Positions 2,940 through 59,700 of a stretch of 64,000 bases of DNA are shown in pieces. The notes beneath the pieces were generated by a model. It did no database searches. It was given only the letters and a program-made list of their open reading frames with translations, and was not told where the DNA came from. Each line of letters begins with the position of its first letter. Positions within the stretch are counted from its first letter, which is position 1. Source of the stretch: Microglena sp. YARC (taxonomy: Eukaryota; Chlorophyta; Chlorophyceae; Chlamydomonadales; Chlamydomonadaceae); contig CM039463.1 in the NCBI GenBank assembly GCA_022414725.1, forward strand, positions 31,758,064 through 31,822,063. The letters run 5' to 3'. A program made the position numbers and the translations under genes.

Positions 2940-4860
2940 ACACAATCACACACACACAAACACACAAATCACTGCAGGACCCGGAAAAGTTCATTGAGCT
3001 GGATGGTGAGATGGTCCAGACACTTCAGGACCAGAGAGACAGCGGCAAGCAGCTTCTGCTCATCACCAACTCCGACTACCAATACACGGACCGCATGATG
3101 AGCTTTGCATACAACCGCTTTATGCCTCAAGGAAACACTTGGCGTGATCTCTTTGACGTGGTGCGCATTGGTGGTTTAGGGCTTGGGGTTCAGGGCTTGG
3201 GATTTAGAGCTTGGGTGTTAGGGTTCAAGGCAGCACGTGGCGTGATGTCTTTGACGTGGTGCACAATGGAGGTTTAGGGCTTGGGGTTTAGGGCTTGGTG
3301 GTGTGCAGGTTTAGGGCTTGGAGGTTCAGGGTTTGGTGGTATGATCTTTTCGACGTGGTGAGCATGGGAGGCTTGTGGCTTGGGGTTTAAGGCTTGGGTG
3401 TTAGGGTTCAATGCAACACGTGGCGTGACCTCTTCGACGTGGTGCACAATGGAGGTTTAGGGCTTGGGGGTTAAGGCTAGGGTGTTAGGGTTCAGGGTAT
3501 GATGGCGTGATCTCTTCGACGTGGTGCGCATTGGAGGTTTAGGGTTTGGGGTTTAGGGCTTGGGTGTTACAGTTCAGGGTTTGGTGGCGTGACTTCTTCA
3601 ATGTGGTTCACAATGGAGGGTTTAGGGCTTGGGGTTTAGGGCTTGGGTGATAGGGTTGAGGGTTTGGTGGCGTAACCGCTTAGATGTAGTGTGCATGGGA
3701 GGTGTAGGGCTTAGGATTTAGGGCTAGGGTGTCAGGGTTCAGGGTTTGGTGGCTTGACCTTTTCGACATGGTGGACAAGGAAGATTTAGGGCTTGGGGTT
3801 TAGGGCTTGGTGTTAAAGTTCAGGGTTTGACGGCGTGACCTCTTCGACGTGGTGCGCACGGGAGGTTTAGGGCTTGGGATATATGGCTTGGGTGTCAGGG
3901 TTCAGGGTTTGGGGTTTAGGGATGGTTGCATGGAAGTGGGTGGGTTGGGCATGGGAAGGGGTGGGAGATAAGGTGGGATTACCACCAGCTCAGACTACCG
4001 GTACAGCGACCGTATGGCGAGCTTTGTAAAGGTAATGACTGTATGGCGAGCTTTGTAAAAGTAATGATAACGCCTGGTGGGGTGTGGTATTAAGAGAGCC
4101 CCGTCTTACGGCGGTAGAGAACGGGCTGTGACTTTACCTGGACAAAGCTGCTATGGCGGTTGACAGCGATTCCCTCCTCTTCAAAATGGAAGGTGACCAA
4201 ATTGATGAATTGAACCTCAAACAATTGCAGGTGATCGTCATGGCCCGCAAGCCTGACTTCTTTAATTACCAGATGAGCTTGTATGAGGTTGTCACGGAGG
4301 ACGGCCTGATGAAGCCTGTCCTAGCGGCAGAGCGAGGAGGTCTGTTTTGCGGCGGCAGTGCACGAGTGGTGGAGAAGGCTATTGGGTGAGTTGACTCGAG
4401 AGGGTGGGAAGGGAGTTGGGGGGGGGAGGTCGGGGGGGCGAGGATGACAGCCTTTTGAAGTCTGTCCTAGCGGCAATGCAAGGAGGTTTGTTTTGCGGAT
4501 GTAGTGCACGAGTGGTGGAGAAGGCTATTGGGGTGAGTTGACTCGAGAGGGTGGGAAGGGAGTTCGGGGGGGGAGTTAGGGGTGGAGTGTGTGTGTGTGG
4601 TGTGTGGGGGTGGGGGGGGGGGGAGGGATGCATTCATGCATTCATGCATACATGTGGGTGGGTGGGTGGGGTTGGGGGGCTGCTGTAGATATATACGAAG
4701 AGGGAACTGACATTTGGTAAATCCATGTGTCCTGGCAGCCAAGTGAGGAGGTTTGTTTTGCTGAGGTAGTGCACAGGTTTTTTATTCCGCCGCTATACAT
4801 AGCGATCGCTACTTTTGACCCCGTTTAGGCCCAAATTGCCGCTATAAAGACCCCCCCCCC

Positions 4861-14394: not shown

Positions 14395-14531
14395 CCTGCC
14401 CAGGTTGTTAAACAGGTGCTCAGGGTGTTAAACACCTGTTTATGTACAGCATATACATCATAGATTAAACATGTAGGTGTTGAACAGGTGTTTAAGACCC
14501 TGAACACCTGTTTAAAAACCTGAGCAGGTGG
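14395..14531. mobile_element. Fold-back (inverted repeat) element
   Basis: Two arms of about 45 bp are inverted copies: AGGTTGTTAAACAGGTGCTC on the left and GAACACCTGTTTAAAAACCT on the right, around a ~45-bp loop. No target duplication is clear. Probably a MITE-like palindrome. Confidence 0.6.
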
Positions 14532-34599: not shown

Positions 34600-37500
34600 C
34601 AGCAGCGGTAACCAGCTAGGACAGCCGGCTAGCGGCGGCGGTGGGAATCAGAAGCGCAACTCTTCTGAGCCGCACCATGTCGGGCTGGACCCTCCGGGTG
34701 CCTATCATGGGCTTACCATGGGCATTGAAGGACAGTGTGAAATATCTCACAGGTAGGTAGGAGGAAGCTAGCCCATTAAGTTAGCCGGGCCCACTTACCT
34801 TAACCCTAACCCTCCTAGTTGCCTAAACCCTAGAAAAACAAACACCAGCGTAAACCCTAAACCTTCAAATCAATCCTAACCCCCAATAAAACCTCAAACC
34901 TTCAAAATCAAAACCCTAAACCACTAAACGCCTAAACCCCCTAGAACCCAGTAAAGTTAAGTGGGGGCTACCTTCCCGCACCACTTGTTTTCTCACAGAC
35001 CTCGCACCAACGCCCCTCGCCATACCCCCAGATTCAACCCACGCACACTACCGCATACTCTACACCACCCACCCATACCCCACACCCTCCACCGACCCAC
35101 CCATACCCCCCAGGTCACAAACCACCAGCACCCTCCCATACCCACCAAGGTTCACACCACACAACAACCGCCCACTACCGACACCGCACCAACTGTCTCA
35201 CAGGACCAGTAATAACCTAAAATTCCCCTAAACCCGTAAACTTAAGTGGGGGGCTAACATTGTGGCTACCTTCCGCCACTGTCTCATAGACCAGTAAATA
35301 GACGCTAATAGACGCATACGGCTTCGCGGCATGTAGGGAAACTTCCAGGGGGCGCATCGCGTGGCCCGTAAGAGGGAAAAATAGCAGAAAAAGGGAGCGC
35401 AAAAGGTGGCTTGACCTTCCCACACCTGTCTCGCAGACCAGGCTTTGTGCCAAATGCTCAACGCCGCGCAAGCGGGGGGCCGGGGGTCCATGCCCATAAA
35501 CCCTTACGAACCACCACGCGGATACCCCCACAGGTTCAACTAACCAACCAGCCACCCAACAACACCACCACCCGTAAACCCCACACGCCTCCCACCACCA
35601 ACCTGTCTCATAGACAAGCTTGTGCCAATCTCAAGCCAGCGGGGGCGCCGGGGGTCCCCTGCATAACCCCTAACACCCACGCCACCCATACCCCCCAGGG
35701 TTTTCCACAAAACCACCAAGCACCCACCAACCACCCACCCAAAACCCGTACACCCAAACCCCTCCCAACCCATCACCTGTCCCCCTCAAAAAATAGACCA
35801 GGCTTTTGTTTTGCCAATCCAACGCCAGCGGGGGCGCCGGGGTCCCCTGCCATAACCTAACACCCCCCACCCACCCATTACCCCCAGGTTCACTAAACCA
35901 CCGCAGCCCACCCCCACCAACACCACCCACCCGTACACCCACACCAGGGTACTTCCATTGACCAAATTGGCCAGCGCTTTAGCGCACTTGTACACAAAAA
36001 AATACTTATAAACAAACAAAGTGCGCTTTGTAGTGCAAAAAGCGCAAAAATTGCTTGCTGCGCCACAGGGGCTGCAAAAAAAAACTGCGCGAAACACCGC
36101 AGTGCGGCTCAAAAAAAAAAGGCAGCGCGCCAGCCGCGCAAAAAGCGCGCGCTTGGAAGTACCCTGACCCACACCCTCCCACCCACCACCTGTATCACAG
36201 ACCAGGCTTGTGCCGATCCCAAGGCCAGCGGGGGAGCGCTGGTGACCATCCTGGCCGTGCTAGCAGACCGCTCCATGCTCTCCTTCCCTGAGGACGAGCA
36301 GCTCAGCCAGGCTGGCAGTGGCAGTGGCAGTGGCACCAGTTCTTGGTCGCTGAAACTGAGCGACCCATTCAACTTATCTTACCAACGCGCTGTGTGTTGA
36401 CCTGGATCTGGATCAAGTGAGGCAAATGAGGTAAGCAGCGCCACACCCACCACCCACCCACACACACACACACCACCCATCCACCATGCCCTAGATAATA
36501 GCTTGAGCCAGCATTTCCTACTTGAAACCCACCCACTCCCGCACGCCCACACACCCACCCACAACCACACACCATGCCCTGGATAATAGCTTGAGCTATC
36601 TGGATCAAGTGAGGCAAATGAGGTAAGCAGCGCTGTATTACTTCAGCCTGATAATGTCTTCTTAACCGAACTAGTTGCTCTCTGTACTGTCGCTATCTGA
36701 ACTGATAACAAGCTATCTGTACTGTCGCTATCTGTACTGATAACTATCTGTATGTCTATCTGTACTGTAAACAAGCTTTATTGTACTATCTGTACTGAAA
36801 CAAGCTATCTGTAAACTGTCGCTATCTGTACTGATAACAAGCATATGTACTGTCGCTTATCTGTACTGATAACAAGCTATCTGTTATGTAAGCTATCTGT
36901 ACTGATAACAAGCTATCTGTAACTTTGTCGCCTACTGATAACAAGCTATCTGTACTATCTTGTCAAGCTATCTGTACTGATAAAACCAAGCCATATGTCT
37001 GATCTAAAAGTAGCTGATAACAAGCTATCTGTACTGTCGCTATCTGTACTGATAACAAGCTATCCGTGTACTGTCGCTATCTGTACTGATAACAAGCTAT
37101 CTGTACTGTCGGGCTATCTGTACTGATAACAAGCCATATGTACTGTCCGCTATCTGTACTGATAACAAGCTATCTGTAACTGTCGCTATCTGTACTGATA
37201 ACAAGCTATCTGTACTGTCGCTATCTGTACTGATAACAAGCTATCTGTACTGTCGCTATCTGTACTGATAAACAAGCTATCTGTACTGTCGCTATCTGTA
37301 CTGATAACAAGCTATCTGTACTGTCGCTATCTGTACTGATAACAAGCTATCTGTACTGTCGCTATCTGTACTGATAACAAGCTATCTGTACTGTCGCTAT
37401 CTGTACTGATAACAAGCTATCTGTACTGTCGCTATCTGTACTGATAACAAGCTATCTGTACTGTCGCTATCTGTACTGGATAACAAGCTATCTGTACTGT

Positions 37501-40137
37501 CGCTATCTGTACTGATAACAAGCTATCTGTACTGTCGCTATCTGTACTGATAACAAGCTATCTGTACTGTCGCTATCTGTACTGATAACAAGCTATCTGT
37601 ACTGTCGCTATCTGTACTGATAACAAGCTATCTGTACTGTCGCTATCTGTACTGATAACAAGCTATCTGTACTGTCGCTATCTGTACTGATAACAAGCTA
37701 TCTGTACTGTCGCTATCTGTACTGATAACAAACTATCTGTACTGTCGCTATCTGTACTGATAACAAGCTATCTGTACTGTCGCTATCTGTACTGATAACA
37801 AGCTATCTGTACTGTCGCTATCTGTACTGATAACAAGCTATCTGTACTGTCGCTATCTGTACTGATAACAAACTATCTGTACTGTCCTTTATCTGAACTG
37901 TAACCAAATTAGTCGTTATGTGTAATCATAACAGTTGTCTCTTTCTCTCGCCTCTTTCAACTGTTGATATCTCGTCTCGAGAAAAAATTCAACCTAGATC
38001 TTAGACCATAAACACCCCTTCCCGGAAATAAGCTTTTATCCGCCACCCCACCCCACCCCACTCCACCCCCCGCCACGCCACCCCACCACCCCCAGGCAAG
38101 CAGCACTGTATTTGCTGCACGTGATGTGTGCGGGTGGCAGTGTCCTAGGCAACTTGGATGCTGCCTCCCAGCTCGGCCATTCTTTGTCAGGCGGTGTTGC
38201 CATGGAGCTCGTGCTGGACACTGAATGCTACTCGGCGTACCTGTGCGGCCTTAACTTGTGGGTACACTTGTGTAACGTGTGGTGTACATTTGTGTGACTT
38301 GTGTAACTTGTGGCGTACATCTGTGCAACTTGTGTAACTTGTGGGAACACCTGTGGGTACACCTGCGTAACCTGTGCGGCCTTAACTTGTGGGTACAATT
38401 GTGTATCGTGTGGTGTACATCTGTGTGACTTGTGTAACTTGTGGTGTACATCTGTGCAACTTGTGTAACTTGTGGGAACACCTGTGTAACTTGTGGGTAC
38501 ACCTGCGTAACCTGTGCGGCCTTAACTTTTGGGTACACTTGTGTAACGTATGGTGTACATCTGTGTATCTTGTGTAACTTGTGGAGTGCATCTGTGTCAC
38601 TCGTGTAACTTGTGGTGCTCATCTGTGTAACTTGTGTGTAACTTGCGGCGTACAGATGGGTAACTTGTGTAGCTTGTGGGTACATCTGTGTAACTTGTGT
38701 AACTTGTGTAGCTTGTGGGTACATCTGTGTAACTTGTGTGTAACTTGCGGCGTACAGATGGGTAACTTGTGTAGCTTGTGGGTACATCTGTGTAACTTAT
38801 GGGTACACCTGTGTAATCTGTGCGGCCTTAACTTGTGGGTACACTTGTGTAACGTGTGGTGTACATCTGTGTAACTTGTGTAACTTGTGGCGTGCATCTG
38901 TGTCACTTGTGCAACTTGTGGCGTACATCTGTGTAACTTGTGTAACTTGTGGGAGCACCTGTGTAACTTGTGGCGTGCATCTGTGTAACTTGTGGGGACA
39001 CCTGCGTAACGTGTTGTATTGAATTGAATTGTGCATCGAATTGTGAGTTGAATTGAATTGTGTATTGAATTGAATTGAATTATGTGTTGAATTAAAATTA
39101 TTTAAATTTAACTGTGTGTTGAATTGAATTATGTGTTGAATTAAATTTCATTTCGTTTAACTGTGGCTTGAATTGAATTTAACTGTGTGTTGAATTGAAT
39201 TATGTGTTGAATTAAATTTCATTTAATTTAATTGTGGCGTGAATTGAATTGAATTGTGTGTTGAATTCTGTCAAATTGAATTGAATTGTGGGCTGAATTG
39301 ATTTGAATTTTGTGTCGAATTAAATTGAATTGAATTTAACTGTGGTTTGAATTGAATTTAATTGTGGGCTGAATGATATAAAATGTAATTGAATTGTGGG
39401 TTGAATTAAATTGAATTAGATTGTGAATTGAATTTTGGGTTGAATTGAATTGTGGGTTGAATTAAATTGAATTTAATTTAATTGTGTATTTAATTGTGTG
39501 TTGAATTAAATTGATTTGTGAGTTAAAATTTAATTAAATTTAATTGTGTATTGAATTGTGAATTTAATTGAATTCAATATGCATGCTCTGCCTTGATGCT
39601 GGTGTTGCATCAACCAGGGGCCAGCATCAGAGTTTTTTGGCGAAGCCCCCCTCCTGGGGGGCGGGATCCCCCAGATTCACCCCGTTGTCCGTCTGTGCGT
39701 CCGACCGCCCCCCTGAGACGAAGCCTGACACGTTAGCCAACTGTTCCGTAACTAGCCTAGACTTCGGTCCGCTCCATTCCGCTCCCACCTGTCGTTCGGA
39801 TAGCCAACACTCTTCGCCAATTTTCTGTAACCCTAGGCTATGTTCAGGTTGCATTGGAGGGGCGGGGGGCGGGGCGAGCAGGGGGCGTGGGCGTGGGTGA
39901 GTTGGGTTGGGGTGGGGTGGAGAGGTTTTAGTGCGGTTCGCTTACAGTGGTGTGCGTAAGACAACATACCAAGAAGGCGACCCTAGCGGCGCTGCCTAGG
40001 ACTTGTTCGCTATAGCCCCTCCTGTCATGGTTGGGCAAGTCCCTTTAGCCTATTTGGTCTAGCTCTGGACTGTAACAACACACACATCCATCAGCCAGGG
40101 ATCTGTACCATAGTGGGTGTGGGTGTGGGTGTGGGAG

Positions 40138-40821: not shown

Positions 40822-42920
40822 CACACACACACATACACATACACACATACACACAACACACACACAGGAATGCAGAGGGGTACCTAGGCCACAGGCGGAC
40901 AAGAAACAGCCGCCCCAGTCCAACTGAGCTGGCAGCCTTGCTCGAAGCCCAGTGTGGAGCCCCGAGTGATGTGCAGATTCAGGTGGGTAGGCATACCTCA
41001 GTTGTTTTCTTTTAGACAACGCATCGCCACTGCGTCGCCGTTCCGTCATTGCATGGCGACGCATGGGTTTGGTGCTGCCCCCCGAACCCCCCAGGCTCCG
41101 CGCTTTGCGTTCCGCCATGCGCTCCACCATGCCCCAAGGGATGTCCGGATTCAGGTGGGTAGGCACACCTCAGTTTTTGTATTTTAGACGACGCGTCGCC
41201 ATTCCATCGCTGCATGGCGACGCATGGGTTTGGCGCTGCCCCCCCAACTTCCCTGGGCTGTGTGTTTTGCGCTCCGCCATGCGCTCCACCATGCCCCAAG
41301 GGATGAGCAGATTCAGGTGGGCACACCTCAGTTTTGTTTTCGTGCGACGCATCGCAAATTGAGCGACTCGGTGCCACCCCAGTGTGACGCGCTGCCTCTC
41401 TAACCCCCCCGAGGCTCCACGCTCCGCCCTATACCGTGCTACGCTACAATCCTGTAGTCTGACTTGCATCGCAACTTTCGCCACACAACCTGCCACCCCC
41501 CACCCACCTACTACCTCTTCCCACCCCCACCCACAGCCTACCTTCTCCCACCTTCCACCCCCACCCACACCCTACCTCCTCTACCTCCCATCCCCCACCC
41601 ACATCCTACCTCCCACCCCCTACCCACCTACTACCTCCCACCCCCCACCCCCACCCACCCTCCACCCACCTACTACCTACTAATAACTCCCACCCCCACC
41701 CACTCCCCACCCCTCCACCCACCTCCCACCCCCCACCCACCTCACCCCTCCACCCCTCCACCCCTCCCACTCCCCACTCCCCCACTCCCCACCCACTCCC
41801 ACTCCTCCCACTCCCCCACTCCCCCACTCCCCCACTCCCACTCCCCACCCCCCTCCCCCAGCCACCTCCCCCTCCCCCCTCCACCCCCCACCTCCCCCCT
41901 CCCACCCACCTCCCACCCACCTCCCACCCTCCCCCCACCTCCCACCCACCTACCTCCCACCCCCCACCCACACCACACCCACCTCCCCCTCCCCCCACAC
42001 CACACCCACCTCCACCCCCCACCCTCCTCCCACCTCCACCCACCTCCACCCTCCCACCCCCTCCCACCCTCCACCCACCCCCACCCACCTCCCACCTCCC
42101 CCCACCTCCCACTTCCCCCCCCTCCACCTCCCACCCTCCACTCCCCCCCCACCACTCCCCCCCCCCCCCGATGGCGTGCCACCTCCCTCCCACCCTCCAC
42201 TCCCCCCCCACCTCCACCCTCCACTCCCCCCCCCTCCACTCCCCCCACCCCGATGGCGTGCCACCGGCCGTTTCATCGCAGGGGCCACGGCGTTGCTCTT
42301 TGAGGGGGCCTCTGCCGCCTCCGCCATGGCCCCCCTGCAGCTGGGGCGGAAGTCCCTGGCTGTATACCTCAGCACCCTGGCCTTCAGCGACAAGCACTCA
42401 GGCGGGGGGGGAGATGCGGTCGGCCTCCGAAGCTACACCGGCCGTGTCCAACTCGAGCATCACCGATTTGCTGAAGAGAAGCTCCTTCACACTCTCCACC
42501 TGGTGTCCCCCTCCACCCACTCCATGCCTGCGAGTGCTGCTGCTAGGTCCACACTCGCCCACTGCCCGCTGCTCCCTCCAGTTCCTCCAGCCCTTACCCC
42601 AGCCCTCCAGCGCTTGCAGGCGTTGCTGTTTGCACGCTGCCTGACACTGCCCGAGCAGTTGAGCGAGGCCTTTCCCCGCCACCTGCTCATGGAGTGCTCT
42701 CTACGTGCAGTCACCCGGTTTGGCGTTTACTATGTCATGAATGCCACCCAAGGTCTGGGCGCCTCGGGAATGCCGTTGGATGCCGTAACGGGCTCAGGGC
42801 TTGAGGCCGTGTTGGACGCTCATAAGAGTCCCATCTCTTGGAAGGCTCTGCTCCAATGCTCGCGAAGGGCTGCGATGGGGTCAGAACAACAACAACAACT
42901 GCAACAGCAACAACAAAAAG

Positions 42921-42965
<45 letters not shown>

Positions 42966-45900
42966 CCACGGGTAGTGGGGGGAAGAAGGGCGGGGATGGG
43001 GACGGGGGCAGAAACAGGAAGGAAAAGCAGGAAGGGGAAACAGTAAGGGGCAAGCGCAGTCACGTCATAAATCCCAAGAGGGTATTGTCCGCCTTTTCCA
43101 CCGGCTTCGAGCCAGGGAGTCAGCTAGAAGGGGCCGTGTCCTTTGGTGAATCCTTGGCTCGGGTTCTCAAAGAGGCCGGCTTTGTTGCCATCGCCCCTGT
43201 GTGGGACACCAGCTCCCCACAGGCTGGGTCTGGCTTTGGTGCTGGGTCTGGCCCTGGTGCTCGGTCTGGCGCTGGGCTTGGGTCTGGCGCTGGGTCTGGC
43301 CCTGGCGCTGGGTCTGGTGCTGGGTTTGGGTCTGGCGCTGGGACTGGCGCTGGGTCTGGCGTCTCTGACCGTGTACCCTGGAACCCTCACTCCACTTTGT
43401 GTGGCGTCCACAACTTCTACATCACCTGCACCGTGCTGCGCGGTCGCCACGAGTACAAGCTCAACTTGGGTGGCCACAGGTTGGTAGGGGGAAATTAGAC
43501 CCCACTTCAGTTAGCCCCCACTTACCTAAATTCTAAACCCACCTAGACTGTAAACCCTAAAACCACCTAAACCCTAAACCTTGGAATCAAAACCTGAACC
43601 ACTAAACCCTAAACCTTTGAATCAAAACCTATACTGCTCGACCCTAAACCTTTGAATCAAGACCTAAACCACGAAACCCTAAACCATAAACCCCATAAAC
43701 TGAAGTGGGGGTTAATTGAAGTGGGGGCTAACTTCCCCCCACGGCACGCCACAGGTTGGAACGCCATCAGATCAGTCCACGGGCAGTTCGGGTGGTATCC
43801 GCTCCATTGCTTCCTCTTTCTACCTGCCTGGCAGCTTCCTTCCCCAGCAATAGTGCTGGCTACCCCATGTCGGACCAAGATCAAGGCCCTAGACCCGATG
43901 TGCCGCATGCACGCTTCATGCTCGAGCTCCGACCTGCTGTGGACGACACCGATATGGGTCCATTCCTGGAGGCCATGAGGACAAGGCAGCAGATTCTGGC
44001 CGTACCGGAGATCGCTGGGTCATCCACACAGGTGAGGACCTCCACCAACACCACTACAGCCACAATCACCAACAACACCAACAACAACACAACAACAACA
44101 CAACTCCAACAAAACTCCAACACCCGACCTGCTGTGGACGACACCGATATGGTTCCGTTCCTTGAACCCATGAGGACCAGGCTGCAGAATCTGGCCGTAC
44201 CGGAGATCGTTGGGTCATCCACACAGGTGGGGCACTCCACCAACACCAACACAGCCACAACCACCACCAACAACAACAACAGCAACTACAACAACGCAAC
44301 ACCAACACACAGCTGGGGCCCTCCACCAACACCACTACAGCCACAACAACAACAGCAACGATAACACCAACAACACACCAGCAACACACCAACACCAACA
44401 CCAACACCACACCACACCACACCACACGAACAACACACCAACAACTCACAACACCAACACCACAACTCCTCCATAACTCCACCTACAAACCACCAACAAT
44501 AAGACAACAACAACACAACAACAAAACAACAACACAACAACACAACAACACAACAACAACAACAACAACAACAACAAACAACAACAACAACAACAACAAC
44601 ACAACAACAACAACACAACAAAACCAAGTCCAAACCACCACCACCACAACGCAACTCCACCACCACAGCAGCACCACAACTCCAACACCACACCACGACT
44701 ACACCAACACCTACACCACACCAACACACCACCAACACCAAAACCAACACCACACCACACCAACACAACCCAGGCGGCAGGCAACCCAGCTTTCCCATCT
44801 TGGGCCACGCTGTACGGTTTGTCACCAAGACCACACCAACACCACACTACCACACCACCAACACTCACCAACACCACCAACACACCACCAACACACCAAC
44901 ACACAGGCAACAGGTGACCCGGCGTTCCCATCTTGGGCCAGGCTGTATGGTTCGTCATCAACAGATGCCCGCGGGGAGTTGTTTCGGGTGGTGCCCGGCC
45001 CCCACTGCGCAGCCTCGGACTTCCTGAACATCAGGATGCACCACCAGCAGTCCTTTGCTCTGGGGGGCGGCAGTGCTGGCAATACAGGCAGTACGCTTGC
45101 TGGAGAGGGAGGCCAGGATTGGCAGGTGGTGGTGGTGATTGATGAGGTTCTTGAGTGGAGCCGTCCCACGCTAGATGGTGTGTACAGAGCGGTGAGTCAG
45201 CTGATGGTGATGGTTTTCTTTATAGCCACTCAGGGGATGATTTGGATTTGGGTCTCGTAGTTAGTACGTCCACTTTTTCAGGTCAAATGTACAAAAATTC
45301 TCAGAATTCTCAGAATTCTCGATTCTCAGGCCGAAATTTCATAATTCTCAGGCCAAATTATCAATTTTTATTTCCGGCTCTCAACACACACCACCACACA
45401 CACACACACCTCCACCACCACCCCCATTTCGGCTTAGAAGGCCAATATCTCCCTCACGTATAACAATTAGATGGTGGGAATTGAGAGTATGTTGACCCTC
45501 TTGACGAGATCTATCCAGCGCTGTGTTCAAAAGTTAATTTGGAGTTTTAAAAACAAATCTGTTGGTTCACCCTGTGTTTACCTTGCACAAACTCGAGCTG
45601 AGCCCTGCCAGGGAACTCTGCGAACCGGACCCAACACAACCAAACCCAACTTGATCCAACACAACACAACTCGACCCAACCCAACCCAACTCGACCCAAC
45701 CCAACACAGCTCGACCCAACCCAACTCGACCCAACCCTACACAGCTCGACCCAACCCAACTCGACCCAACCCAACTCGACCCAACCCAAGTAAACCCAAC
45801 CCAACACGACCCACCTTGCACAAACTCGAGCTGAGGCCTACCAGGGAACCCTGCGAACCGGTGGGGGGAAGCTACTACCCACAAAGCTACTACCCACAAG

Positions 45901-46294
45901 CCAGATCTCCTCGGGTTTAGGGGGTTAGGGTTTAGATTATAGGTTTTTGGGTTTAGGGTATAGGAGATCTGGCTTGTGGGTAGTAGCTTTGTGGGTAGTA
46001 GCTTCCCCCCTCCCTGCGAACCGGACCCAATCCAACCCGGCAATCCCCCGCTCCAACCCCACCCTCTAACGAGTAATTCTTTTAAGTCCTCTGAGTTTTC
46101 GATTCGTGGGCAGATTCGGGATGCTCTCATTCAGCCCCCATCTTGGTGGTGTGCGAAACGTTTGAAAAGAAAAGAAATGCATTAAGCCAAGTCAGTGTGA
46201 TTAAGGAAGCTGTCCAAAGGGGGTCCTCGGACAACACCATCGTTCGATTCTGGCCAGGGGTGAAGAGGTTCTTGCTACGAGTCTAGATATTTTG

Positions 46295-53759: not shown

Positions 53760-56700
53760 CCATCATCATCATCATTGCTATCTGCAGAAACAACTGTGGG
53801 GAAGTGTAGTTGTGGACTTTGGCCATGAGCTGGTCACATCCATCCACACTCCTTTGGCTTGGAGTAATGAGCGACCATCACCTGACGAATTCATGGAGGC
53901 ATACACACAGACCTCGCTCTCATCCCTCAAGGTATGTACCTCGCAATGTATGTACCTCGCAAGGTATGTACCTCACAAGTACGTACCAAACAATACTGAC
54001 CTGGCTGTCATCACTCTAAGTACGTACCAAACAATGCTGACCTGGCTGTCATCACTCAAAGTATGTACCAAACAATACTGAACTGGCTGTCATCACTCAA
54101 AGCACGCACCTCCAAATGCCAACCTCGCTTTCACCAGAGAGTATCTGAGCCTCATTAAGAGTCCAAATATGCACAAGTATAATGCATGTACCCCCCCCCC
54201 CCCCCCCCCCCCCACACACACACACCCTCTTCCCCCCTCACCCCCTGCCTCACCCCACAGTGTGATCCCTCCTTGCAGGTTATTGACTTCATTCTGCAAC
54301 TCGTATCTCCCCCCCTCTCCCTCCCCTCTATCCCCCCCCCCCCCCTGCCCTCCCTGCAAGACCCCCCCACCCAATCCTCTTCCCCCCCACCCCCACCCCT
54401 CCCTGCCGCCCACCCCCTGCCTCACCCCACAGTGTGATCCCCTCTTGCAGGTTATTGACTTCATTCTGCATCGACAGTCTAAGCTCACGTCGCTCACTTT
54501 GTGCAACAGCGAGGGATTCTGGGGAGAGGAGGGAGAGTACCTGAACCTGGGTGGGAAACACAACTTCAGTGCCTCGCACTTGGGCATGCTGCTTGGCACT
54601 CTTCGACTCCACTTGCAGGTAGAGCAGGGCCTTTGTTAAAATCTCTTCGGATCTTCAAATTCTTCAATTTGTTTCAAATCTTCAAAATATTTAAATATTT
54701 TTCAAATCTGAATGTGGCCTTTTTCTAGCTTAATGGTTTCAGGCCTCCTCCAGGGACAGCGTTTTAGTGCTTTTCATAGCTTTTTAAAGCTTTTACAGAA
54801 TTTATAGCTTGCAGGTAGAGAGCTTGCACTTGGTTACATGGCTGTAAGGCTGCTCACCATCTTCGTCTCTAATTACATAATATAATCAATTCATGCCAAG
54901 TCGATTCATGTATATCATATTTGTTTGTTGACGAATTCATGTATATCATATTTGTTTGTTGAAGAATTCATGAATATCATATTTGTTTGGACGAATTTCA
55001 ATCTTATGTCCCTCTGGTCGTTAAAGTAATTCAGAGCGCAAGTATAATATCAAATAAAAGTATACCGTAATTATAGAATATAATACATTCAAATCTGCTC
55101 GGTACTCTTTGGCTCCACTTGCAGCTAGAACTTGAACTTGGTTACATGGCTCAAGCCCTTTAAGGCTGCTCACCATCTTCGACTATAACATTATCAATTC
55201 AAATCCAAGCATAATTATCAAAATATATATAAATATAAAATATTAATAATACGATAATATAATAATAATACAAAATAAATAAATAATGCATTCTTATCAA
55301 AATAAATTCGATCCAGTCTCTCCATACAATCATGGATAAACAAAGGAATGAAGAGAAACAGTAGCCTCCCTTTTATGGAGCCCTTGCCAATTATGTGGTT
55401 AATTGTTTTTAGGGTTTAGGGTTTAAGGGTTTCCTACAGCGTCCTACACCTACCTGCTTTTACAGCTTCCTACAGCTGACAACAGCTAGAACAACTCAGA
55501 GTATTGACGTGATTGTCTGAAGATGTTCAGAAGGGTTAGTCTGCTAACTACTCTGCAGCTTCCCACAGCTGACAAGAGCCAAAATAAGTGCGTATCAACT
55601 TGATCGTCTGAAGAAGTCTAAAAGGGTTAGTCTGGGAACTACTCTGCAGCTTCCTACAGCTGACAACAGCCAAAATAAATGCGTATCAACTTGATCGACT
55701 GAAGAAGCCCAAAAGTGTTAGTCTGCTAACTACTCTGCAGCTTCCTACAGCTGACAACAGCCAAAATAAGTGCGTATCAACTTGATTGTCTGAAGAAGTT
55801 CAGAAGGGTTAGTCTGCTAACTACTCTGCAGCTTCCTACAGCTGACAACAGCCAAAATAAGTGCGTATCAACTTGATCGTCTGAAGAAGTTCAAAAGGGT
55901 TAGTCTGCTAACTACTCTGCAGCTTCCTACAGCTGACAACAGCTAGAACAACTCAGAGTATCGTCTTGATCGACTGAAAACATTCAGCAACGTTCGCCAG
56001 ATAACAGCCAGGACAACTCAGTGTAACAACTTGAGCGTCTGAAGAAGTTCAAGTTGCTATATGCAAGTTGTTATTTAAGTTGAGTCAAGTGGATGTTGCT
56101 GACATCCACTTGACTCATGACCACAAGACTCTCACAACCCACTCCTCATCTCTGACCTCCAAAAAATAAGTAATGATAACGCCCTGTGGGGCATGGTATT
56201 AAGGGAGCCCTGACTTACAGTGGTAGAGAACGGGCTGCTACTTTACCTGGACAGTGCTACCATGGCGGTTGACAGCGACCGCGAACACTAGAGCGCACCT
56301 GTAGGGATTCCAAGTCCACACCTTCTGCTTGATTTCAACGAACTCAACCATCGAGCCAATCGACAAAATGGGAGATGTGACCTGCAATGTGATGCAGGGG
56401 CTGAAGCTTTTAGTGCCCCCCCTCACTGCCCCCCCAGCTCGCACCCACTCCTCGTCTGTGACCTGCAATGTTATGCAGGAGCTGAAGCTTTTCAACTGCA
56501 GCGATTTGATATCTGGGGACCAGGGTCTGTGGAGCATTGCTGGCTTCTGCACCAACCTCCGTACACTTGCCGTGGAAAACATTAACATGAAGGTCAGCGG
56601 GACAGAGATGGAGCAGTTTTCTCGATTGCAAAAGGTGGGTTCTTGATTTGACCAATCATCAAATGAATGATATGATCACTTTCATTTGATTTGTGTAGGG

Positions 56701-59700
56701 ACCGGCAATATGATATCATGTCATCATATGATGCCGGCAGTCAGACTAGGCCAAAGCTACCATTTGTATGCAATATCATATGATGCAAGTTGTATGATAT
56801 CATACTCACCTTTGGCCAACATCATACGATATGCGGATCCCTAGATATATGGGGACCAAGGTCTGTGGAGTATTGCTGGTCTCTGCACCAACCTCCATAT
56901 CCTGGCTGGGGAGAACGTTAATATGAAGGTCTGCAAGGCAGAGGTGGGGCAATTTTTGACGGAGCCCCCTCTTCAAGGGGGTGGGAGCCCCCAGGGGCAT
57001 CCCGTTGTCTGTGCGTGTGACCGTCTGACCGAGACAAAGCCTGATACGCCAGCCAACGGTCTTGAACTAACTCGCTTACATTGCCACCTGTCACTTCGTT
57101 GCAAACACTCTCGACCAATTTTTAGCATCGCTTGCGATGCTGCATATAACATGTTGTGATTGGGACTACTGTATTTGATCACCAGCAATACACAGAAATG
57201 GCTTGTTGGTTTGGAATCATTGTAACCAATTTTCTGCACCAACCTCCATACACTGGCTGTGGAGAACGTTAATATGAATGTCTGCGGGACAGGGATGGGG
57301 CAGATTTTGCGATTGGAACTACTGTATTTGATCACCAGCAATACACAGGAATAGATTGTTGGTTTGGATCATTATAACACATTTTTTTAATACCAATGAA
57401 TACAACCAATTTTTACTGACTTGCCTTTGACTTGATTTTTTGTTACTTTTACCGGCTTTTACATACACAAAAATGAATCCCTCCCCACTCCCTACCCCCA
57501 CCCACAATCCCCAACCCCAACCCCACGCTATAATACCAATTGTGTCTGCCCCTCAAATGAACCTTGTGCAGTTGGAGAAGCTCTCCGTGATTGGAGTGTG
57601 GGTACAAACTACAAACTACGAGACCCAAATCCAAATTATCCGCTGAATTGCTATAATACTAATAATTGCTGTAACACCAATTGTGTCTGCCCCTCATATG
57701 AACCTTGTGCAGTTGGAGAAGCTCTCCGTGATTGGAGTGTGGGTACAAACTACAAACTACGAGACCCAAATCCAAATTATCCGCTGAATTGCTATAATAC
57801 TAATAATTGCTGTAACACCAATTGTGTCTGCCCCTCATATGAACCTTGTGCAGTTGGAGAAGCTCTCCATGATTGGAGTGTGGGTACAAACTACAAACTA
57901 CGAGACCCAAATCCAAATTATCCGCTGAATTGCTATAATACTAATAATTGCTGTAACACCAATTGTGTCTGCCCCTCATATGTACCTTGTGCAGTTGGAG
58001 AAGTTCTGATACCAATAATTGCTATAATGCTAATAACTGCTGTAGTACCAATTGTGTCTGCCCCTCTTATAAATTTTGACACAAGAGACAATTTGCTGTT
58101 GCCACTGCCTTGCCTTTGACTTGACTTCAAATTTATTAACACATGTTTTGACTTTTTCATACAAAACAATTTTTTGACTTTATTGAGATATCTGAGATGA
58201 TGAGATACATACAAAAGATGTTTTGGCTTTTACCAGCTTTTACATACAAAAAAATGTGTTGAATTTTATATCAAAAAAATGAACCCTGTGCAGTTGGAGA
58301 AGCTCTCCGTGATCGGAGAAGAGCGAGGGAACAGTGTTGCACAGCAATCGCTGATAGGCATGGACTCCATGCCCCAGTCATGGTCCAAGCTCACCTCGTT
58401 GACCTCTTTGGAACTGAGGGGCCACTGGATGTTGGACACGTGAGTCTCACTTTTTCACTTTTTTGCGAGGCCACTTAGGCTTGGTATGAGAGTCAGTCTG
58501 TCGGGTTTAGGGACCAAGGTCACCTCGTTGACTCCATTGGAACTGAGGGGCCATTGGATGCTGGATACGCGAGTCTCAGTTTTCTCCTTTTTTTGCGTTG
58601 CAGACTGTATGCTTTGTATGAGATACAGTTTCTTTAGGGTTTAGGGACCAAGCTCACCTCGTTGACCTCTTTGGTGAGGGCCCCCTGTACGCTAGGAACA
58701 AGAGTCAATTGTTAGGGTTTAGGGTTTAGGGACCAAGCTCACCTCGTTGACCTCTTTGGTGAGGGCCCCCTGTACGCTTGGAACAAGAGTCAATTGTTAG
58801 GGTTTAGGGTTTAGGGACCAAGCTCACCATGTTGACCTCTTTAGAAGTGAGGAGCCACTCACTGGATGCTGGACACGTGAGTCTCACTTTTTTACGGGGC
58901 AGACCGTACCAGTTTTTCGTGAGTATGCGTGAGTACCAGTTTTTCACCTTTTTTGCGGGCCTCTGCACACTTGGTGCGGGAGTCAGTTTTTAGGGTTTAG
59001 GGTTTAGGGACCAAGCTCACCTAATTTACTTCTTTGTAACCGAGGGGCCACTCACTGGATGCTGGATACGCGAGTCTCGTATTTTTTTGTGGAGCACCCC
59101 TTCTGGGAGCGGGAGTAAGGGGCCGTGTCCTTGGGTGAATCCTTGGCTCGGGTTCTCTAGGAGGCAAGCTTTGTTGCCATCCCACCTGTGTGGGACACCA
59201 GCTCCCCACAGCCTGGCCCTGGTGCTGGGTCTGGCGTATTTTTTTGTGGAACACCCCTTCTGGGAGCGGGAGCCCCCCGTGTCACCCTGTGTCCGTTTGA
59301 CCAAAATACCATGGCCACTGGATGCTAGAAACGTGAGTCTCAGTTTGTTTTCATCTCTTCTCCTGGTTCCTCCACCTCTTCCACCTTATTCTATACCTTA
59401 ACTGGACCTAAGCTGTAAGTATGACCCATGGATGTTTTGTTAGTTCATAAAGTGGGGTTTTTATGGCTTAATGGGTTTAGGTCTCCTCCAGGGACAGCGT
59501 CCTAATAGCTTTTAAGCCCACCACCCCATCCCATTCCACCCCACCCACCACCATCCCCACCATCATCTTCACACACACACACACACTGTTTTAATATTTA
59601 TTTGTTTTTATTCTCTATTAGGTCTTCCAGTCGAGGGTGGGTATCTCCCACCTACCCTAAGTGCGCCTACTTTTTGTAGGAGTGGCAACGCCATTTGAAC

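Follow-up and report, generated by a model that had tools for sequence, protein, structure and literature searches.

The locus described here raises the question of how an intron can come to consist of little else than a palindromic mobile element. In the window (the whole stretch of 64,000 nucleotides of Microglena sp. YARC DNA that was analysed), the initial annotation had described the intron at 43480-43754 as made almost entirely of one element of a palindromic family, T, with a CCCTAAA-type core, and had proposed that a DNA transposon made this intron through duplication of its target. We estimate at about 0.92 the probability that T is a non-autonomous DNA transposon, a Mutator-like MITE, whose insertion into exons would give rise to spliceosomal introns. 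T is called Mutator-like because it combines a 9-bp target-site duplication (TSD) with long inverted arms. That the element is spliced, and what part each signal plays, is what we infer from the sequence.

An intron built from a single element

The composition of the intron (275 nt, phase 2, plus strand, as are the other features of the gene) was confirmed, with corrections. From its donor (CAG/GTTGGT, where slashes mark junctions) to its acceptor (CCACAG/GTT), it contains three bases of the left TSD, the T element (43483-43743, GGTAGGGGG...CCCCCCACG, with termini defined from the genome copies), five extra bases (43744-43748) and six bases of the right TSD, and nothing remains. The left (43484-43523) and right (43703-43742) inverted arms, previously given as ~38 bp, measure 40 nt each and are 88% complementary, and they enclose a telomere-like (CCCTAAA) minisatellite core of 3.8 units of 35 bp (43552-43685). 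As RNA, this element, hereafter copy 1, is predicted to form one long hairpin of -74.4 kcal/mol (z -6.7, a stability equalled by 0 of 200 shuffles), whose base lies close to the splice sites. The right arm holds a C-rich tract and the motif CTAAC (43728-43732), which corresponds to the branch-site consensus and lies 27 nt upstream of the acceptor, an interval free of AG.

The perfect 12-bp repeat reported at both flanks, GCCACAGGTTGG, is present exactly and occurs exactly twice in the window (43473-43484 and 43748-43759); as a background for such a repeat, at least 12 bases around the site are common to 446 of 373,447 random pairs of CAG sites. Its reading as a 12-bp duplication did not hold, because the genome-wide duplication is of 9 bp and the TSD of copy 1 is therefore CCACAGGTT (left copy 43474-43482, right copy 43749-43757), the remaining three bases (G, GG) being further matches at its flanks; on the left side the GG belongs to the terminus of the element. 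The two TSD copies match perfectly, but the right one lies five bases further out than usual, at offset 5. With the AG inside the TSD alone the distance from CTAAC to the acceptor would be 22 nt, and the five extra bases bring it to 27 nt, which may be a coincidence. Since this TSD contains CAG/GT, the donor would come from the GT of its left copy and the acceptor from the AG of its right copy, with the target exactly restored by splicing.

A protein homologue spans the splice junction

When the spliced window protein was scored against the 8000 candidates with most words in common with it, a sole homologue emerged, P0012 (932 aa, 49% identity, E 1.1e-122). The alignment continues without gaps over the copy-1 junction (LNLGGHR/LERHQISPRAVRVV), from EYKLNLGGH to ERHQISPRAVRVV, and thereby fixes both splice sites at 43479/43755, in agreement with the earlier proposal that the left repeat copy gives the donor and the right one the acceptor, and with the frame kept on splicing. 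Searches of the window with P0012 using tblastn returned coding blocks, with approximate ends, at 36194-36418, 38097-38213, 40869-40985, 42254-43210 (E 4e-75), 43373-43483 (E 5e-11), 43750-44031 (E 1.5e-23) and 44925-45146, so that genes 1 and 2, previously annotated as separate, are one gene. The fourth and fifth blocks fall in the coding exon 5' of the copy-1 intron (42254-43479) and the sixth corresponds to the coding exon 3' of it (43755-44030). No Pfam domain was found in P0012, and no convincing match was obtained from Pfam for the window frames, from the PDB for the copy-2 peptide or from the protein search with pieces of the gene, after which the longer query gave P0012.

This alignment also bears on two explanations in which T would not have created the intron. 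According to the first, the element entered a pre-existing intron or its donor, and the true acceptor is at 43847 (TTCCTTCCCCAG) or at another later AG. The segment 43755-43847 indeed has no stop codon in any of the three frames, a strong pyrimidine tract stands at its end, and the frame is kept alike by the 43755 and the 43847 routes. However, P0012 encodes this segment (LESHYISPRAVRVVSAPLLPLS against LERHQISPRAVRVVSAPLLPLS), so that it is exon rather than intron and the later acceptor is refuted at the protein level; in addition, the copy-1 intron is made only of element, TSD and five bases. We consider this explanation extremely improbable. According to the second, the insertion is a plain mutation, with the element lying unspliced in a copy that is dead or not expressed. 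Exons on both sides that are 49% identical to P0012 with an undamaged frame, the CTAAC placed before the acceptor without an intervening AG, and closely similar layouts at four other T copies (L023, L026, L037 and L097) argue against it, whereas the stop found 16 bases into the intron in the unspliced frame and the donor GTTGGT, which we take to be sub-optimal, count in its favour; on balance it is very improbable.

Among the 40 places scored in a search of the host genome (an assembly of 568 Mb in 2390 contigs), which were mostly T copies, the copy-1 exons were found at their own position and in a tandem duplication within the window (44124-44225) and nowhere else, and no element-free version of the copy-1 locus was seen. 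The tandem duplication has a length of 195 bp (43929-44307) and covers the exon end, the donor and the intron start.

T copies carry a 9-bp duplication across the genome

The T arm GGTAGGGGGAAGTTAGCCCCCACTT gave 671 matches in the host genome with up to 3 mismatches (361 forward and 310 reverse), compared to 0 for the reversed-pattern control, and the termini of the family are conserved (GGTAGGGGGAAG...CTTCCCCC(C/T)ACC). The T loci that we examined were taken from about the first hundred places among the matches listed. The sample began with 137 loci, from which we removed L001 (phage), L003-L009 (each coinciding with a later locus), 44 loci without an arm pair at 6 substitutions and 6 repeat pairs, leaving 80 elements that include copy 1 (L002).

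The genome-wide flanking duplications expected by the initial annotation were found in these elements: with up to 2 mismatches, the 9-base stretches preceding the left GGTA and following the right terminus agreed in 28/80 copies, compared with 20/1600 at other offsets (Fisher 5e-27; control offsets up to 2 from zero were excluded). Within the 28, which were selected for a near match there, the match rate per column was 0.75-0.96 over the nine columns and at most 0.61 outside them. When 16 offsets were permitted (-3 to +12), a laxer test, at most 1 mismatch was found in 26/80 elements paired with their own flanks (offset 0 in 18 cases), versus 6/1576 flanks mispaired between elements. A TSD at offset 0 is absent from the other 52/80 copies, and 36/79 copies have no recognisable TSD within -3 to +12, the same 16 offsets being allowed in the coding-score sample (79 elements, L002 excluded). 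One copy with a perfect TSD, L048, is nevertheless outside the 28.

These duplications weigh against a further explanation, in which T introns spread through reverse splicing of RNA instead of DNA transposition. Such a mechanism has a precedent, since PMC9860276 describes it as a proposal for fungal introners without TSDs or terminal inverted repeats. T elements, by contrast, have 9-bp TSDs and inverted arms, and in sense orientation 34/43 copies with a TSD lack a splice-ready target, leaving next to no probability for reverse splicing.

The arm pattern matched viral contigs once, in an unrelated phage contig, and two further patterns gave 0 matches there. T arms or pieces of them also appear as short tandem series at G000:C2:67500947-67501231 and G000:C1445:11675-12805, which suggests local amplification of the element.

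Two proposed routes to the splice sites

The proposal that a DNA transposon makes introns through target duplication was supported by the coding copies, but most of them take the donor from the element end and not from the TSD. In 6/7 coding copies the donor derives from the element terminus GGTA (AG/GTAGGG) and the acceptor is formed by the final A of the TSD and the next target G, so that copy 1, with both sites from the TSD, represents the rarer route among the coding copies seen. In this commoner case, the TSD would end in A, which together with the first G of the element would create AG/GTAGGG, an element-borne donor; the right arm would supply CTAAC or CTACC as the branch site and TTCCCCC as the pyrimidine tract, and the final A of the right TSD and the adjacent target G would complete the acceptor. 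At L023, L026, L037 and L097 the layout reads NNCA+G/GTAGGG (GTAAGC in L097), then GGGCTA(A/C)CTTCCCCC, the terminus, and the TSD ending in CA followed by G. In copy 1, L026 and L097 the distance from CTAAC to the acceptor is 26-27 nt, and CTACC takes the place of CTAAC in copy 2, L023 and L037. The sequence common to these six copies extends from the start of the AG/GT to the end of the TSD-derived AG, and their status as introns is assigned from frames and homology.

At the unlinked locus L023, excision joins a frame of 333 codons, the unspliced frame stops 5 codons past the junction, and the protein, with an NPHP3_N domain in the same frame, aligns without gaps through GLHM/QGLS in 7/7 aligned homologues (the best 7 of 9 found); a PDB search with it gave no convincing match. 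Excision also joins frames of 264 codons at L026, 169 at L037, the least complex of these three, and 238 at L097. For L078 the codon-model score is that of coding sequence. L048 (G000:C1:171394600-171396100) lies in a homologue of ALKBH6 (PDB 7vjs, E 1.5e-10), and its TSD, GCAGGTCTC, contains CAG/GT in the same design as copy 1, with too few residues before the junction to place the site mid-exon. At L020, a coding insertion with an intact TSD, the AG is absent from the expected place, and another acceptor may be used.

Copy 2 is a second T intron of the window gene, and a diverged one. Its left TSD, TATCTCACA (34743-34751), is directly followed by GGTA twice and has right counterparts in tandem acceptor units: TTTCTCACA and TGTCTCACA with 1 mismatch each and TGTATCACA with 2. 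The element together with the first acceptor end occupies 34752-34998, beginning with GGTAGGTAGG, with its donor CACAG/GTAGGT at 34753 and the first acceptor AG ending at 34998. The present-day intron (34753-36200) has been lengthened by tandem copies of the acceptor end, and homologous exon starts at 36201. Over this junction the spliced protein aligns to P0012 without gaps (33/55 identical), with weak conservation in the ten residues upstream of it. The fold of copy 2 is no better than that of shuffles (z -0.45), and the hairpin is thus not retained in every copy. A reading of copy 2 in which the donor GTNGG belongs wholly to the element and the TSD has 7-8 bp was rejected, since the genome copies give 9 bp. 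At 34990-36240 each tandem unit repeats the acceptor end of the copy-2 intron together with the beginning of the exon that follows it, and decayed copies of that exon are included; this is a case of intron growth by tandem duplication.

Orientation and coding context

The coding copies that have a splice arrangement, seven in number (copies 1 and 2, L023, L026, L037, L078 and L097), are all in sense, a call made from the count of CTAAA/CCTAA versus TTTAG/TTAGG in the core. The CCCTAAA strand of the core has nearly no AG or GT and many CTAAA/CTAAC branch-like motifs, whereas the TTTAGGG strand abounds in cryptic acceptors: in the inner core, AG occurs at 1.87 per 100 bp on the former strand and 10.95 on the latter, and CTAA[AC] occurs 6.9 versus 1.1 times per element, an asymmetry that is partly built in and is descriptive, not an independent test, because orientation was assigned from core motifs. 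Copies whose TSD shows the splice arrangement (AG-type) were 6/28 in sense and 2/28 in antisense (p 0.13), or 9/43 and 2/39 with a free offset (p 0.036), an excess that is suggestive only; 0/2 of the antisense AG-type copies are open across the junction. A tentative possibility, to which we give rather less than even odds, is that the telomere-like core makes T splice-competent in one orientation, so that T would act as a facultative one-way introner, yielding an intron only if it lands in sense orientation at an A^G or CAGGT site. Under such a scheme, a MITE would have become splice-competent by gaining telomere-like repeats.

The length of the open reading frame through the junction was rejected as a coding test, given that 36% of controls have frames of at least 100 codons there. 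When a codon model was trained on 599 codons of the window gene that have homology support, it scored 4/9 sense AG-type copies above 0.1 across the junction, and 1/34 sense copies with a TSD and no AG (p 0.005, with small numbers and a cut-off chosen post hoc); at the preset 0.15 the values were 3/9 and 1/34 (p 0.024). Copies coding across the junction are thus mostly those in which splicing could work, and the check on enrichment at splice sites set by the initial annotation came out in its favour. T overall shows no excess of coding junctions: 4/79 T copies in sense and 22/632 control positions exceeded 0.15.

Relation to known introners and MITEs

Mutator-like MITEs and foldback elements have 9-bp TSDs, long palindromic arms and short direct subrepeats within the arms. 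Subrepeats of about 16 bp are present in the arms of T and of about 15 bp in those of a relative at 45860. In comparison with Mutator-like MITEs, no transposase with T termini was found at the three MULE-domain matches of the genome (3.2-kb loci), near which T termini are absent. The introners of Micromonas and Aureococcus, which Huff et al. are said to have described in 2016, are reportedly MITE-like and take a splice site from the TSD, a likeness to T by description.

T would be a new family of an already known kind, the introners. The work of Gozashti et al. 2022 on aquatic eukaryotes (PMC9860276) attributes to introners DNA-transposon signatures, TSDs and several modes of splice-site recruitment. 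T resembles the introners reported there in being repeated introns that are alike to near both splice sites and bear DNA-transposon signatures, the earlier families having insertion repeats of 3-9 bp. The commoner route of T recalls the Chrysochromulina case, in which the element carries the 5' splice site and co-opts the 3' site, and copy 1 the Florenciella case, in which both sites come from the insertion site (PMC9860276). Unlike these families as described there, T has a telomere-like minisatellite core, and both recruitment routes seem to occur within one family. PMC7789003 presents the introner elements of Amoebophrya as similar to T in that an inverted-repeat hairpin joins the exon ends and direct repeats lie at the boundaries; those elements are found among non-canonical introns with direct repeats of 3-5 nt, unlike the GT-AG introns and 9 bp of T. 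Among titles and abstract openings of the open-access literature we found no description of a telomere-like introner core.

How new introns originate has long been asked, and the cases that let each step be followed in the sequence are few. In the present case one genome displays a transposon family, an exact TSD, two splice-site routes, non-exonic relatives and uninterrupted protein homologues, and the family should permit a direct measurement of the fate of insertions, as introns or as losses, and of the role of orientation and branch-site content in deciding it.

Related palindromes and other features of the window

A MITE family related to T, the second in the window, provides an example of such an element moving with a duplication of this type at a place outside the known exons. 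Its element at 45860-46013 (plus strand, tip GGGGGGAAGCTA) has a TTTAGGG core and a near-perfect palindrome of 52 nt, and lies outside the exons found by homology. The direct repeat seen around it spans 13 bp, of which the T rule assigns 9 to the TSD: CTGCGAACC stands at 45851-45859 on the left and its right copy at 46014-46022, and a near-identical empty site is present at 45618. Another palindromic element, at 14395-14528, has 46-nt arms (91%) with AACACCTGTTTA repeats and is not T-like. AGGT-type direct repeats at 54612 and 14431 were considered as introners and rejected, as they lie within segmental or palindromic repeats.

Between approximately 18000 and 32200, copies of a tandem unit of ~2.95 kb carry, on the minus strand, five genes for U3 snoRNA; these match the plant model (Plant_U3), in keeping with a green-algal host. 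Pairs of TAGGGGGAA within this U3 repeat were rejected as T arms, with about 10 matching bases inside a stretch read as tRNA-like; ARAGORN found no tRNA in the window. Finally, TTTAGGG-like units and minisatellites are also present outside T elements, at 3127-3912, 55413-55430 and 58500-59010, and are common in this DNA.
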